Assembly: GCF_014647475.1 (NCBI RefSeq)
Contig: NZ_BMPG01000003.1
Coordinates: 1 to 64,000, forward strand
Length of the DNA stretch: 64,000 nt
Reading direction: 5' to 3'
From: Halocalculus aciditolerans
Lineage (GTDB): Archaea > Halobacteriota > Halobacteria > Halobacteriales > Halobacteriaceae
The notes below the pieces were generated by a model. The model had not been told where the DNA came from. It made no database searches and saw nothing but the letters and a program-made list of their open reading frames with translations. Position 1 is the first letter of the stretch. Each line of letters starts with the position of its first letter. The position numbers and the translations under genes are program-made. Below, piece by piece: positions 81-7,543 of this stretch.

Positions 81-117
81 CGTTCGCATCTCATCCGAGT
101 ACCAGGATACACTTAAG
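81..117 (-). promoter_or_regulatory. rRNA operon promoter, copy nearest the rRNA
   Basis: Read on the minus strand this 37-nt block begins with the TATA-like box CTTAAGTG and ends with ACTCGGATGAGATGCGAACG. That layout matches the repeated rRNA promoters known from Halobacterium and other haloarchaea, where transcription starts in the ATGCGAACG segment. Transcription would run leftward out of the window. Confidence 0.85.
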
Positions 118-209
118 GACATCGTTCCAAGCTCGGTTAGACCGAGCCGGCGTCGACCCCAGCCGGAATGAGTGCGTCGGTAGCGCGGGAGTAGACCCGG
201 CCACCTCAT

Positions 210-246
210 CGTTCGCAACTCATTCGAAGCGTGGGGAATACATAAG
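210..246 (-). promoter_or_regulatory. rRNA operon promoter, middle copy
   Basis: Second copy of the same 37-nt element, 129 nt from the first. The TATA-like box is CTTATGTA and the start region TTGCGAACG. The box differs slightly from the other two copies, so strength may differ. The transcribed side shares GGCCACCTCATCG (plus strand reading) with the third copy. Confidence 0.8.
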
Positions 247-339
247 GCCTCCGAACCGGCCTCGTGAGAGGCGAGTCGGAGGGGATCCCCGGAATCGGAT
301 GCATGCGTCGGTAGCACGGGGTGACCCCGGCCACCTCAT

Positions 340-376
340 CGTTCGCATTTGTTCCGAGTGCCGGGCTACACTTAAG
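340..376 (-). promoter_or_regulatory. rRNA operon promoter, distal copy
   Basis: Third copy, 130 nt from the second. It has CTTAAGTG as TATA-like box and AATGCGAACG at the expected start site. Equal spacing of about 130 nt and the shared downstream sequence indicate tandem duplication, as in other haloarchaeal rRNA operons with serial promoters. Confidence 0.85.
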
Positions 377-1962: not shown

Positions 1963-3017
1963 GTTACAGACGAACCCTTGATGGGTTGAAGCCTCGGTGT
2001 GGCCGATGAGGAGCGCGGAGCCCTGCTTGTTACAGACGAACCCTTGATGGGTTGAAGCTACCGGGTATCGGGCCGCTGACGAGCACGCAAACGAGTTACA
2101 GACGAACCCTTGATGGGTTGAAGCCGCCCGTGAAGTGGCGCATCGGCGCACCGACCGAGTTACAGACGAACCCTTGATGGGTTGAAGCCCGTGGAAGGCC
2201 CGCCATGACACGACAAGAGTTAAGAGTTACAGACGAACCCTTGATGGGTTGAAGCCCGGTCTTTGTCACATCACTGCTGTCTCCCTCGTGTTACAGACGA
2301 ACCCTTGATGGGTTGAAGCGCCTAAGTGCTCAGACGAGCGATTTTGTCGCAGGAGTTACAGACGAACCCTTGATGGGTTGAAGCCCGGTTCGCGCGGCCG
2401 CCGTCGCTGGCGTCGTCAAAGTTACAGACGAACCCTTGATGGGTTGAAGCGCGCAGATGCCGCTCGGCAAAAGTGACGGGAGCGTGTTACAGACGAACCC
2501 TTGATGGGTTGAAGCAACGTCTAATCCCATCGGGCCAAAGTACGTCGTCAGGTTACAGACGAACCCTTGATGGGTTGAAGCGACCGCCGCGGCATCGACG
2601 TCGATATCGACGTCTTGTTACAGACGAACCCTTGATGGGTTGAAGCCCGCTCTCGACCGGAATCTCCATCACCGCGGCCTCGTTACAGACGAACCCTTGA
2701 TGGGTTGAAGCGATCTGATCCGCTCGGTAGCCGACTTTCGCCCCGCGTTACAGACGAACCCTTGATGGGTTGAATCCTTCTCGCCGCCCTTCCACGGAAC
2801 GGTCTTGGTGTTACAGACGAACCCTTGATGGGTTGAAGCCCAGCAACAGCTACGTGAGTAGAAAGGAGAGGGGTGTGTCGAGTGACACGCCCGCCTCACT
2901 CAAACCAGTTAGTCGTGAGTCTCGAAGGGACTAATCCTTTTCGCGTTACAGACGAACCCTTGATGGGTTGAAGCGTCATCGATATCGTCGCCTTCGCCGG
3001 CCTCACCGTGTTACAGA
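1963..3017 (+). CRISPR. CRISPR array, 15 full repeats plus one truncated
   Basis: A 30-bp repeat starting GTTACAGACG and ending GGGTTGAAGC occurs at 1963, 2029, 2095, 2159, 2226, 2290, 2355, 2421, 2486, 2552, 2617, 2682, 2747, 2810 and 2945, with spacers of 33-37 bp. The repeat at 2747 ends TTGAATC instead of TTGAAGC. The interval between 2840 and 2944 is 105 bp. After one more 35-bp spacer, only the first 8 bases of a repeat remain at 3010. The GTTGAAGC end corresponds to the 5' handle of haloarchaeal type I-B crRNAs, so transcription is on the plus strand. No cas gene is in the window. Confidence 0.97.
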
Positions 3018-3307: not shown

Positions 3308-5374
3308 ATGCCGACATGTGACGGCGGCGGGAAGAGGCCGGTGCGGTTCGAGCGCGCCGACGACGGCCTGGGCGTCGTCGTCACCGATACCGTCGAGGAG
3401 CGCTCGGTGACGGTGCACACCGACCAGCCGCCGTCGTTCGCGCCGTCGGACCCCGACTCCTTCGTCGCGCCGCTCGACGACGCCGTGACGTTCTACGCGA
3501 ACGAGCTCAGCGTCGAGGGCGTGAGTTCGGTGTCGGTCTTCGACGAGCGCGGTGATCACGTCCGGGGGCTCGGAGCCGGCGGCGCGGCGTTCCCGCGCGG
3601 AACGTACTACCTGAACGTTCAGTCGGAAGTGCAACTGTACATTCGGGTGTTCGACACGGCGATAGAGACGCAAGGGGGGGATGCGGGGACTAGCCAATAT
3701 ATCGACGTCTCTGCCGGCGGGCCGACGCGCGTCGAGGTCGGCGCGCGGTCGCGCCACGAGCGCCCGGCGGCGACGATAACGGTGGGCGACGACCCGGAGG
3801 ACGCGATGGCGGCCGTGAGCTATCTGGGGTCAGGAATGAAGGAGTGGAGCGCGGAGCGGTCGTGGCCGACGATTCGCGGCCACCCGCCCGCCATCGAGCG
3901 CGGCGGGGGGTTGCACGTCCCCGACGACCTCTCGAAGCCGGAGACCGGTGTGAGGGTGTGCGTCCCCAAGTCGCACGCGGCGGTGTACCGGGTCGCGCCG
4001 CTCGCATACTATCTCGGCGCGACCGTCGAACCTGCCGACGGCGCGGCGACCGTTCTCTGTCTCGAGAACGGCTACGAGGAGCGACTCGGAACGGGGAGAA
4101 GCGTGGAGCGTCGCGTCGACGACCTGCTCGCGCGGTGTCTCTTCCTCGACTCGCTCGTGCGTATCGGCGGCTACTACGAGTTCGAGCGCTACGAGTACGA
4201 GACGGTCGGCGGCCGCCTCCCGTTCTATCCGCCGGAGCTCTACGATGCGACGCTCAGCGAGCAGTTGATGGAGTACCTCGACGTTTCGTCGGGCGATATC
4301 GAGCCCTACCTGCCGGAGTGGCCGCTCACCGCCGTGCTCCGCGACGCCCCCGCGGACGTCGAACTCCTCCCGTATCTCGTGAACGACCTCGCCCGCGTGC
4401 ACGTTACGCCGCACGGCGAGGCGACCGGGACCCCGAAATCGTCGGTCCCGCGGTCGATGATCGTGGGCGACAGCAGCACAGAATCGCCCGCGAGAACCGC
4501 CGCGCTCAGCGTCGACGCCTACGAGCGAGGGGTGGACGCCGTCATCGGGGAGCGAGCGGAGGTCGTGGTGGTTGCCGCGCCGGAGACCGTCGATCTCGTC
4601 GAGACCGTCTCGGCCGACCGCCTCGCCCAGAACCCCAGTGTCGCGTGCGTCGACGACAGAAGCCGAGCTGCCGTCGCCGACGCGCTCGAGCGCGACGCCG
4701 ACGTCGTCCTCGTCGGCGTAGCCGCGTCGAACGGCACCGTCGCCTGCCGGGACGGCGGGCTCTCCCTCACCAGCCTCGACGTCGACGCGTCGACGGTGGT
4801 CTTCACCGACGGCGATGCTGTATCCGCTCGTCGAGCCGTCGACGCCGGCGCGCTCGACGCGGTCGCACTCGCGGGCGACTCCGAACGGGCCGGGCGTGTC
4901 GCCGGCTACCTCGCCGCCGGCTGCACGCACACCGACGCGGTCCGGGCCGCGGCCGCGGACGCGCCGTGGTGGCTCGCCGGCGACCCACAGCGAGTCGTCG
5001 CGTCCGACGACGAGCAGGTCTGGATGGAGCTCCGGGTCGACTCCGTCGCCCCGGACGAACACGACGTGACGTACACCCCGCTCCCGCGGAAACACCACCG
5101 GTTAGGGAGCGTCGTCTGGGTGCAGGACGACGCGATAGCGGACGTCCACAGCCTCGTCGGCGTCACCGTGTCACTGGACGCCCCCGTCAGCACCGAGACC
5201 GTCCTCGAACTCACAGCGGGCCCCGAATACCTCCTCACGCTCAACGGCGAGCGCATCCACGACCGCTCGCGCGTGACAGAAGCACTCGTGCGCGACTCCG
5301 CGGAGCGAGCGCTCGCCGAAACGGCACCGAACGACGACGGGCCTCGAGAGGAGTCCGAATGGCGGGCGGAGTGA
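3308..5374 (+). CDS. Large protein with possible degenerate CHAT-like domain (paralogue 1)
   Basis: A 688-residue cytoplasmic protein, first of two tandem paralogues (next at 5501) that share the whole length, for example DPDSF.APLDDAVTFYA near the N terminus, SEQLMEYL in the middle and LLTLNGERIHD at the end. About residues 460-545 have the layout of a CHAT peptidase C-terminal half: a hydrophobic strand before SNG, a second strand VVFTDGD, then AVDAGALDAVAL and GYLAAGCTHTDAVRAA. The catalytic His and Cys expected after the two strands appear replaced (VGVAASNG, FTDGDA). The CHAT assignment is inference from pattern only. No signal peptide or membrane segment is seen. It could be a structural or sensor homologue of the caspase-like fold. 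Confidence 0.75.
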   Translation: MPTCDGGGKRPVRFERADDGLGVVVTDTVEERSVTVHTDQPPSFAPSDPDSFVAPLDDAVTFYANELSVEGVSSVSVFDERGDHVRGLGAGGAAFPRGTYYLNVQSEVQLYIRVFDTAIETQGGDAGTSQYIDVSAGGPTRVEVGARSRHERPAATITVGDDPEDAMAAVSYLGSGMKEWSAERSWPTIRGHPPAIERGGGLHVPDDLSKPETGVRVCVPKSHAAVYRVAPLAYYLGATVEPADGAATVLCLENGYEERLGTGRSVERRVDDLLARCLFLDSLVRIGGYYEFERYEYETVGGRLPFYPPELYDATLSEQLMEYLDVSSGDIEPYLPEWPLTAVLRDAPADVELLPYLVNDLARVHVTPHGEATGTPKSSVPRSMIVGDSSTESPARTAALSVDAYERGVDAVIGERAEVVVVAAPETVDLVETVSADRLAQNPSVACVDDRSRAAVADALERDADVVLVGVAASNGTVACRDGGLSLTSLDVDASTVVFTDGDAVSARRAVDAGALDAVALAGDSERAGRVAGYLAAGCTHTDAVRAAAADAPWWLAGDPQRVVASDDEQVWMELRVDSVAPDEHDVTYTPLPRKHHRLGSVVWVQDDAIADVHSLVGVTVSLDAPVSTETVLELTAGPEYLLTLNGERIHDRSRVTEALVRDSAERALAETAPNDDGPREESEWRAE

Positions 5375-5500
5375 CGAGGAGACCGTGACCGCGAAGCGGA
5401 CGACCGCACCCGAGCGCGCGGCCACATACCGCGATCCCCCACCCGTGCGACCGCACCACAGAAACCCGTAAACCATCCCAATGCCAAAGACACCTTCAGA

Positions 5501-7543
5501 ATGACCAGCGGGCGACACGACACGGGGAACCCCATCACCTTCGCGCGCGCCGACGACGACCACGGCATCGTCGTCACCGACGAAATCGAAGACCACTCCC
5601 TCGCCATCCACACCGACGAACCCCCCGCCATCGCCCCCTCCGACCCCGACTCCTTCATCGCCCCCCTCGACGACGCCGTCACCTTCTACGCCAGCGAACT
5701 CGAAATCGACGAAGTCAGCTCGGTCTCCGTCTTCGACGAATACGGGAATCACCTCCGAGGAATCGGAGCCGAAACAGTGGAGTTCGAACGGGGAACGTAC
5801 TATCTGAATATTCTGTCCCCGTTTGTCGGGTATATCAGGCTGTTCGAAACCGAGTTCGAGGTACGAGCTTCCAGCGGACCCGGAGGAGGGCTAGAAGTGA
5901 CTGTCGCGTGTAGAGGCTCGACGCGAATCGAGGTCGGGGCGCGCTCCGAGCATTCCCAGCCAGCAGCGACGATCACCGTATCTGACGACCTACAAGACGT
6001 CGCAGAAGCCATCTCTCATCTCGGTTCTGGAATCAAAGAGTGGAGTTGCGAACGGTCGTGGCCGACCTTACGAGGGCACTCCCCAGCAGTCGAACGTGGG
6101 GCCGAGCTACACATTCCAGGTGAGGTCACTAAACCAGATACGGGAATCACAATCGAGGTCCCGAACTCACGGCTCGCCATGTATCGAGTCGCGACGCTCG
6201 CAACGTACGTAGGTGCAGAAGTCACGATAGGCGACCGCGACGAGACGACCCTTCGCCTCGAGAACGGGTACAGCGAGTCGCTCGGAGCTGGAGTCGGTGC
6301 CGAGTCGAAAATCGACGCCTTGCTCGGAAAGACGTTCTTCCTGGATTCGCTCGTACGCATCGGTGGCTACTACAACTTCGACCGATACGAATACGAGAAA
6401 GTCGGAAGCCACCTCCCGTTTTCACCACCCGAACTCTACGATGCTACTATCAGCGAGCAGTTGATGGAATACCTCGAAGTCTCTCTCAGCGATGTCGAGC
6501 GGTATCTCCCGGAATGGCCGCTGACCGCAGTTGTTCGCGACACCCCCGAAGACGTCGGTGTTCTACCGTACCTCGCAAACGACCTCGCACGAATCCACAC
6601 GGTGAGAGGGGAGGACACGACGACCAAGGTTTCACCATCGATGAGTGTCGGATACACGGGCGCAGACGCTCCGGCCGGAATTGCTCAGATCCGTTCGGAC
6701 TCGTATGAGCGAGGAATCGATGTGCCGATGTCGACCCAGGAGGAAGCGCGGTGCATCGTCATCGGCGCACCTGAAGCGCTGGCCTCGTCGACCGCGGTAG
6801 CTGCGAGTCAAACACCGAACGACGTCGAGATATCGATAACGAGCGTTCCACCGAGCCGAGAGGAGGTTCGGTCCGCACTCGAGAGTGTCGCCGACTGCGC
6901 CGTCGTCGGTGTTCCGGCGAACGAGGGTATTCTCACCTGCAGTAACGGTTCCCTCTCTCTCAGTGAAGTCGCCATCGAAGTATCGACGGTTCTCCTCACG
7001 AATAGCGGCCGTGAGACAGCGTCACGGGCTGTCGATGCCGGCGCACTCAACGCCGTCGCAGTTGGGGGTGACGACGCTGGCACGGGAAGGATTGCCGGGT
7101 ACCTGCTCGGTGGCTGTACGCTGGCCGATTCGACGAAGCAAGCCGCCATCGAACCACAGTGGTGGTTAGTCGGAAACCCGACTCGAGCAACTATCGTTGG
7201 ACCCGCCGGACCACCTGGCCGAATCGAAGTCGAATCCGTAACGCCGGACTCGCATCGAGTTGCAGAGAACTTCCGTTACGAAGGCGCACACAGATTTGGC
7301 GGGGCCGTACTGGACCGGAATAAGTCACTCCCGGACAAACACTTCCTCATCGGCACAACTATCGACCTGGATATTCCGGTAGAGACGGAGGTGATCACCA
7401 AGATGGCCGAGAAACCGGGGACTCTCCTCACGCTCAACGGTGAGCGGATTCACGATCTGTCGCGGGTGACCGAGGAGTTCGTGCGGGCGTCGGCGAGGGA
7501 GGCGGTGGCGGAGCGGACCGAGGCGGAGCGGGAGTCGCGTTAG
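5501..7543 (+). CDS. Large protein with possible degenerate CHAT-like domain (paralogue 2)
   Basis: The 680-residue tandem paralogue of the preceding gene. Conserved blocks include SDPDSFIAPLDDAVTFYASE, VRIGGYYNFDRYEYE and NGERIHDLSRVTEEFVR. The CHAT-like region is about residues 463-550 (VVGVPANEG, VLLTNSGRE, AVDAGALNAVAVGG), again without catalytic His or Cys. A TATA-like CGTAAACC lies about 30 nt before the ATG, so it probably has its own leaderless transcript despite the 126-nt gap. The middle of this copy has a less GC-rich codon pattern than paralogue 1, suggesting the duplication is old or one copy was acquired. Confidence 0.75.
   Translation: MTSGRHDTGNPITFARADDDHGIVVTDEIEDHSLAIHTDEPPAIAPSDPDSFIAPLDDAVTFYASELEIDEVSSVSVFDEYGNHLRGIGAETVEFERGTYYLNILSPFVGYIRLFETEFEVRASSGPGGGLEVTVACRGSTRIEVGARSEHSQPAATITVSDDLQDVAEAISHLGSGIKEWSCERSWPTLRGHSPAVERGAELHIPGEVTKPDTGITIEVPNSRLAMYRVATLATYVGAEVTIGDRDETTLRLENGYSESLGAGVGAESKIDALLGKTFFLDSLVRIGGYYNFDRYEYEKVGSHLPFSPPELYDATISEQLMEYLEVSLSDVERYLPEWPLTAVVRDTPEDVGVLPYLANDLARIHTVRGEDTTTKVSPSMSVGYTGADAPAGIAQIRSDSYERGIDVPMSTQEEARCIVIGAPEALASSTAVAASQTPNDVEISITSVPPSREEVRSALESVADCAVVGVPANEGILTCSNGSLSLSEVAIEVSTVLLTNSGRETASRAVDAGALNAVAVGGDDAGTGRIAGYLLGGCTLADSTKQAAIEPQWWLVGNPTRATIVGPAGPPGRIEVESVTPDSHRVAENFRYEGAHRFGGAVLDRNKSLPDKHFLIGTTIDLDIPVETEVITKMAEKPGTLLTLNGERIHDLSRVTEEFVRASAREAVAERTEAERESR

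Follow-up and report, generated by a model that had tools for sequence, protein, structure and literature searches.

A tandem pair of putative caspase-fold pseudoproteases in the haloarchaeon Halocalculus aciditolerans

Introduction

The CHAT proteases, such as SAVED-CHAT (8tl0) and Csx29, the TPR-CHAT protein of Craspase (TPR, tetratricopeptide repeat), are the closest described systems to two tandem genes of Halocalculus aciditolerans that are analysed here. The genes, named P0001 and P0002, lie in the first 64 kb (positions 1 to 64,000) of contig 3 (NZ_BMPG01000003.1, assembly GCF_014647475.1) of this 3.38-Mb haloarchaeal genome, and this whole stretch is called the window below. Their products share the caspase-like domain and its strand order with the CHAT proteases. 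They differ in lacking the His-Cys dyad and in having an N-terminal module of beta and alpha/beta domains without TPRs; moreover, their family falls below the Pfam CHAT cut-off and shows no association with clustered regularly interspaced short palindromic repeats (CRISPR). Gingipain R/K (peptidase C25) and separase are the best or near-best structural matches, and for the intact sister protein L102 the match extends into the preceding alpha/beta subdomain, although the identity is only about 8-19%.

Loss of a His-Cys dyad from a caspase fold is known from bacteria. Pseudo-orthocaspases are bacterial caspase-fold homologues that have lost the dyad and have a conserved clade structure, and a survey of p20-type caspase homologues places the pseudo-variants in bacteria and none in Archaea (PMC6426788). 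Those proteins are of the p20 (C14) type, whereas the window family is archaeal, has a fold like that of CHAT and gingipain, and gave no Pfam C14 match. In Haloferax volcanii, a caspase-like activity inhibited by zVAD-FMK has been reported, and the same paper states that clear homologues of caspases are missing from archaeal genomes (PMC3615174). By title and abstract, no earlier description of a haloarchaeal CHAT or pseudo-CHAT family was found in the open-licence literature; one may be in print elsewhere.

Results and Discussion

Loss of the catalytic dyad

The two genes, their caspase-like domains (borders approximate in P0001) and the positions of the dyad in the window are as follows.

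3308..5374, forward strand: P0001, putative pseudoprotease paralogue 1, 688 residues (open reading frame (ORF), translation and homology); beta-rich N-terminal, alpha/beta middle, inactive CHAT/caspase-like and C-terminal beta domains, with borders transferred from the P0002 model via the alignment
4490..4993, forward strand: inactive caspase-like domain of P0001, residues about 395-562 (alignment to intact sisters)
4721..4723, forward strand: catalytic-His position of P0001, codon of Ala472 (alignment)
4793..4813, forward strand: catalytic-Cys position of P0001, TVVFTDG, without Cys (alignment)
5501..7543, forward strand: P0002, putative pseudoprotease paralogue 2, 680 residues (ORF, translation, AlphaFold2 model and fold matches)
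6683..7186, forward strand: inactive caspase-like domain of P0002, residues about 395-562 (AlphaFold2 model; VIA-align matches, e.g. SAVED-CHAT over 409-567)
6914..6916, forward strand: catalytic-His position of P0002, codon of Pro472 (alignment)
6986..7009, forward strand: catalytic-Cys position of P0002, TVLLTNSG, without Cys (alignment)

Both ORFs start with ATG on the same strand, with a gap of 126 bp, and in a protein search their products are 53% identical over nearly the whole length. The tandem of large paralogues noticed in a preliminary description of this DNA is thus real, and it is a local duplication. Three more relatives (L003, L004, and L005) are encoded on other contigs of the host genome, and all of them have His-Cys: the segment DFLHFIGHIDGEGFKC is accompanied by AFLLNACRS or near variants, so that the dyad reads HYIGH...LLNAC. 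The aligned segments of P0001 and P0002 are ADVVLVGVAASNGTVAC and ADCAVVGVPANEGILTC, then STVVFTDG and STVLLTNSG, respectively. The motif by which the preliminary description had recognised the fold, AVDAGALDAVAL and AVDAGALNAVAV in the two proteins, pairs with L.E.GAIGGVVTL of the intact sisters. This alignment to three intact paralogues of the same genome bears out the suspicion that both His and Cys are replaced in both proteins; a Ser may stand opposite the Cys in P0002, depending on the placement of one gap. The His-Cys dyad that marks an active clan CD cysteine peptidase is absent from both P0001 and P0002.

The homologues retaining His-Cys that the preliminary description proposed looking for do exist. 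From the fetched loci, 128 family ORFs were obtained, and 107 distinct full-length members were aligned after the removal of 10 partial and 11 duplicate rows. The dyad is present in 43 of them and absent from 64. Among the 64 inactive members, two have a His within two residues of the site and two have a Cys within three residues, while none has both; the His site is occupied by Pro in 45. In a search with a profile built from the caspase-like domains of 31 intact sisters, SAVED-CHAT 8tl0 was the only PDB sequence reported (E 0.029), with YIGH aligned on FIGH and LNAC on LNAC. These His and Cys residues form the catalytic dyad of CHAT proteases.

Predicted fold

The AlphaFold2 model of P0002 (57 aligned sequences) has a predicted local distance difference test score (pLDDT) of 91.9 and a predicted template modelling score (pTM) of 0.91. 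In VIA-align, where a Z under 8 may reflect just a common arrangement, the highest match was DdvA (8rw5; Z 13.1, 207 aligned, 4.2 Å), which is described as a transmembrane anti-sigma factor. It was followed by RgpB (4ief; Z 11.6, 225 aligned, 3.4 Å), SAVED-CHAT (8tl0; Z 11.6, 154 aligned, 2.7 Å), separase (5fby; Z 11.1, 175 aligned, 3.5 Å), and Csx29 (8eex; Z 9.6, 194 aligned, 4.2 Å), and caspase structures were also among the matches. The top rows of Foldseek were separase (1.5e-4) and Csx29 (8.7e-4). A structure prediction against CHAT and caspase folds had been proposed as a check on the first reading of the sequence; the predicted structure is caspase-like, and P0002 as modelled has the CHAT/separase/gingipain fold of clan CD. 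The model of the intact member L102 (pLDDT 84.6, pTM 0.86) matched RgpB (4ief, Z 20.9, 272 aligned, 9.5 Å; 1cvr, Z 20.5, 240 aligned, 2.8 Å), SAVED-CHAT (Z 16.2, 171 aligned, 2.5 Å), separase (Z 15.9), and Csx29 (Z 13.5).

In the P0002 model, a beta-rich N-terminal domain (about 10-160) and an alpha/beta middle domain (161-375) precede the caspase-like domain (395-562), and the C-terminal part has more strands. Strands run across residues 12-160, where no N-terminal TPR helices are seen, and for this beta domain the comparison with the whole P0002 model gave weak rows only (Z 7.8-7.9; YidC and a glucosidase). The N-terminal and middle module is common with the intact sisters, and its invariant residues include R185, S186, R191, P195, Y236, D282, R286, and G289 (P0002 numbering).

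Origin of the inactive clade and selection

A tree was built from the residues N-terminal to the caspase-like domain, and it is therefore independent of the dyad trait. A single branch divides the intact and inactive sets (support of 100 in the Shimodaira-Hasegawa-like approximate likelihood ratio test, SH-aLRT), so that one change is needed. Another family of the phylum provided four outgroup sequences (L150-L153), which share the architecture partly or wholly and of which three keep the dyad. In the tree rooted with them, into which 23 of the 64 inactive rows were taken, the inactive clade (support 100) falls inside the intact ones, again with one change. The ancestral state is thus probably the intact dyad, with a single loss leading to the clade of the window pair. 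The outgroup member L153 (G355:C3) has a separate dyad loss of its own (FIGR..., FFLCTDSS).

The dead domain has diverged quickly. At equal identity of the middle domain (0.54-0.56), the identity of the caspase-like domain is 0.24 among inactive members (883 pairs) versus 0.55 among intact ones (636 pairs), and its median ratio of nonsynonymous to synonymous substitution rates (dN/dS) is 0.38 (29 pairs) versus 0.11 (8 pairs); the pairs are not independent in either comparison. For the other segments of the inactive clade, four segments being compared in all, dN/dS is 0.28-0.31 in the 29 close pairs. Selection on the dead domain is relaxed but the domain is not neutral, and purifying selection continues. 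Its quick divergence together with this continued selection makes the pair look like maintained pseudoproteases.

Distribution of the family

When P0002 was the lone query against genome contigs, 27 stretches were retrieved and none was confirmed, whereas a query with the family alignment gave 262 confirmed stretches out of 268, of which the best 80 were kept as named relatives. A census of 293 genomes of the host's order, all at least 90% complete, revealed the intact profile in 274. The inactive-clade profile has 55 matches in 47 genomes, at a threshold of 130.8 bits or more (the next row has 99.4 bits). In a sample of the phylum, the intact profile was found in 57 of 295 genomes (E up to 1e-5), four of which are outside the order and belong to one family. 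Each of the 15 Haloferax genomes in the search carries one intact member, H. volcanii not being pinpointed among them. Tandem inactive copies, at most about 2.5 kb apart, occur in five of the 47 genomes (G000, G006, G009, G104, and G171). Runs of three consecutive family members, spaced by about 2.1-2.5 kb, were seen in two other haloarchaeal genomes, at G016:C1:418234-422993 (intact profile 167-173 bits) and at G104:C1:875891-881348 (80-87 bits). No virus-borne relative was confirmed among 10 pattern stretches, and none of 25 plasmid records spans 80% of P0002; the plasmid copies are mostly annotated as hypothetical.

Standard profiles hardly detect this family. Scans of P0001 and P0002 with Pfam and NCBIfam gave no match above cut-off, and Pfam CHAT (PF12770) does not match either protein at E up to 10. 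In the whole host genome, only the three intact paralogues match Pfam CHAT, at 22.2, 14.4, and 14.2 bits, all below the curated cut-off of 24 bits; a separate scan of the three proteins gave E values of 0.063, 0.11, and 2.1e-4, also below cut-off. The H. volcanii control had no Pfam CHAT match, which is uninformative because the same library misses all three of the other Haloferax intact members tested. Pfam p20/Peptidase C14 matches neither P0001 nor P0002 (E up to 10) nor eight relatives (E up to 1), while one of eight scanned relatives reaches Peptidase C25 weakly (E 0.091, below cut-off). Membership of a known anti-phage defence family was rejected, since at E up to 1 PADLOC-DB gave no match for any of eight proteins (the window pair, five relatives, and a neighbouring DUF7504 protein). 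Thus, a near-universal haloarchaeal caspase-fold family is almost invisible to standard annotation.

Possible roles of the pair

The fold, the loss of both residues, its single origin, the purifying selection, and the near universality of the intact sisters are all computed. The reading of them that I consider probable is that P0001 and P0002 are regulatory or scaffolding pseudoproteases of a haloarchaeal clan CD family, whose clade lost the dyad once, has been kept since, and uses the shared N-terminal module. The two proteins would act without proteolysis. The strongly conserved module may have the same binding target as in the intact enzymes, be it a ligand, a partner, or a substrate, and the fast-evolving dead domain might be a binding or regulatory surface, serving as a decoy, a scaffold, or a hetero-oligomer partner.

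Several points weigh against this reading. The forks that nest the inactive clade are weak to moderate (92, 62, 18, and 89), and long branches meet there. An intact member is present in 46 of the 47 genomes with the inactive type and in 228 of the 246 remaining ones; with no excess over background, this co-occurrence was rejected as proof of a pair and does not prove that the two types work together. In one genome, G178, the inactive type occurs but the intact profile has no match. Around inactive-type genes, no partner gene is conserved beyond synteny in Halorubrum. The folded model is that of P0002, from which the fold of P0001 is deduced by alignment, and the absence of proteolysis is likewise deduced from the residues.

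It is unlikely, but less so than the other alternatives, that, independently of the intact proteases, the dead fold has acquired a new activity or its own ligand site. Such neofunctionalisation would suit a single clade kept across several families, a His site with mostly one replacement, the genome without an intact copy, and the lack of the DUF7504 and HalX neighbours of intact genes (see below). On the other hand, clade members show little conservation in the caspase-like domain (mean identity 0.285), with no obvious new invariant pocket, and the conservation is located in the module common with the intact enzymes. That the genes are decaying tandem copies heading for loss is improbable: the patchy occurrence (47/293 genomes) and the fast divergence of the C-terminal half point that way, but 64 distinct members have full-length open frames, dN/dS is 0.28-0.38 in all four segments, and the P0002 model is compact and confident. 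A still active enzyme with a displaced nucleophile is hardly to be expected, since the Ser that TVLLTNSG can place opposite the Cys is absent from P0001, both proteins lack a His near the site, and the Cys-site residue varies across the clade.

For regulatory pseudoproteases, FLIP(L) offers a possible mechanistic analogy. This animal protein is an inactive paralogue of active caspases, with different domains; for the window proteins, forming a dimer with an active sister would be hypothetical. The intact sisters may be candidate genes for the haloarchaeal caspase-like activity, which has had no gene assigned to it. It is unlikely that the intact members are the source of the zVAD-FMK-sensitive activity and that, in addition, the inactive clade with the window pair comprises FLIP-like regulators of them. 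If true, there would be an archaeal caspase/pseudocaspase system that escapes Pfam models and was overlooked for this reason. One ancient branch of the family consists of maintained pseudoenzymes, whereas the p20 survey has no pseudo-variants in Archaea (PMC6426788). An intact member would also be a concrete, testable gene for the activity described in H. volcanii (PMC3615174).

The neighbouring CRISPR array

1963..2974, forward strand: CRISPR array, 15 repeats of 30 nt, Rfam CRISPR-DR24 (RF01337); judged a functionally unlinked neighbour

The preliminary description placed the pair beside a CRISPR array without cas genes. The array is real, but the missing cas genes cannot be judged from the window because it begins at contig base 1 and the leftward side lies beyond it. 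In a genome search aimed at cas1 only, the sole match is on another contig (C2:203635), where it lies beside an array with 15 copies of a related repeat (L127, G000:C2:195000-214000); related repeats are also found at C2:270162-270647. The cas genes of L127 probably serve the window array in trans. At 105 nt, one array spacer (2840-2944) has roughly the length of two spacers and a repeat combined, which would fit the loss or replacement of a repeat. When the spacers were compared with the window and with four further stretches of host DNA, the longest exact match was 16 nt (at most 24 aligned with mismatches), with no convincing self-target.

Is the pair an accessory of this array, like TPR-CHAT (Csx29) in type III-E? 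A distance of 333 bp separates the end of the last full repeat from the P0001 start on the same strand, and Csx29 is among the structural matches of P0002. Nevertheless, this is very improbable: no array lies within the flanking DNA (at most 10 kb) of any of the 80 named relatives, further arrays exist in the genome, whose cas1 is on a different contig, and the N-terminal part of P0002 is beta-rich and not TPR. Arrays were also not found in 16 further stretches around relatives (the family ORF was not called in four of them) or in the three stretches around the intact paralogues of the host. Two three-copy repeat hits in the relatives' loci were rejected as tandem duplications with identical inserts. 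With no arrays near relatives and with other arrays and cas1 elsewhere in the genome, the adjacency is very probably a coincidence unrelated to the gene pair. Thus, the hinted CRISPR link is the part of the preliminary description that finds no support, while its reading of inactive CHAT/caspase-like proteins stands on the fold, the His-Cys homologues, and the single-loss tree.

Gene neighbours

Neighbouring genes were counted in the 80 named loci and the window, which are related and not independent events; the counts are approximate because the gene caller filters ORFs by acidity and length. DUF7504 (Pfam PF24336) is found in 20 of 34 intact loci versus none of 47 inactive loci, and HalX response regulators in 11 of 34 versus none of 47. 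In most cases, the end of the DUF7504 gene is less than 100 bp from the stop-to-stop frame of the intact gene or overlaps it, and the strand is nearly always shared. The grouping of DUF7504, HalX, and the intact gene suggests a haloarchaeal signalling operon. No DUF7504 was found in the 15-16-kb stretches around the three intact genes of the host genome. Among L076-L114, an intact gene right after DUF7504 and near a HalX regulator was observed, for example at L089:8969-9844 and L089:12454-13152. At the contig end (window 81-376), a 37-nt direct repeat occurs three times at a spacing of about 130 bp, the other two copies being 68 and 84% identical to the first.

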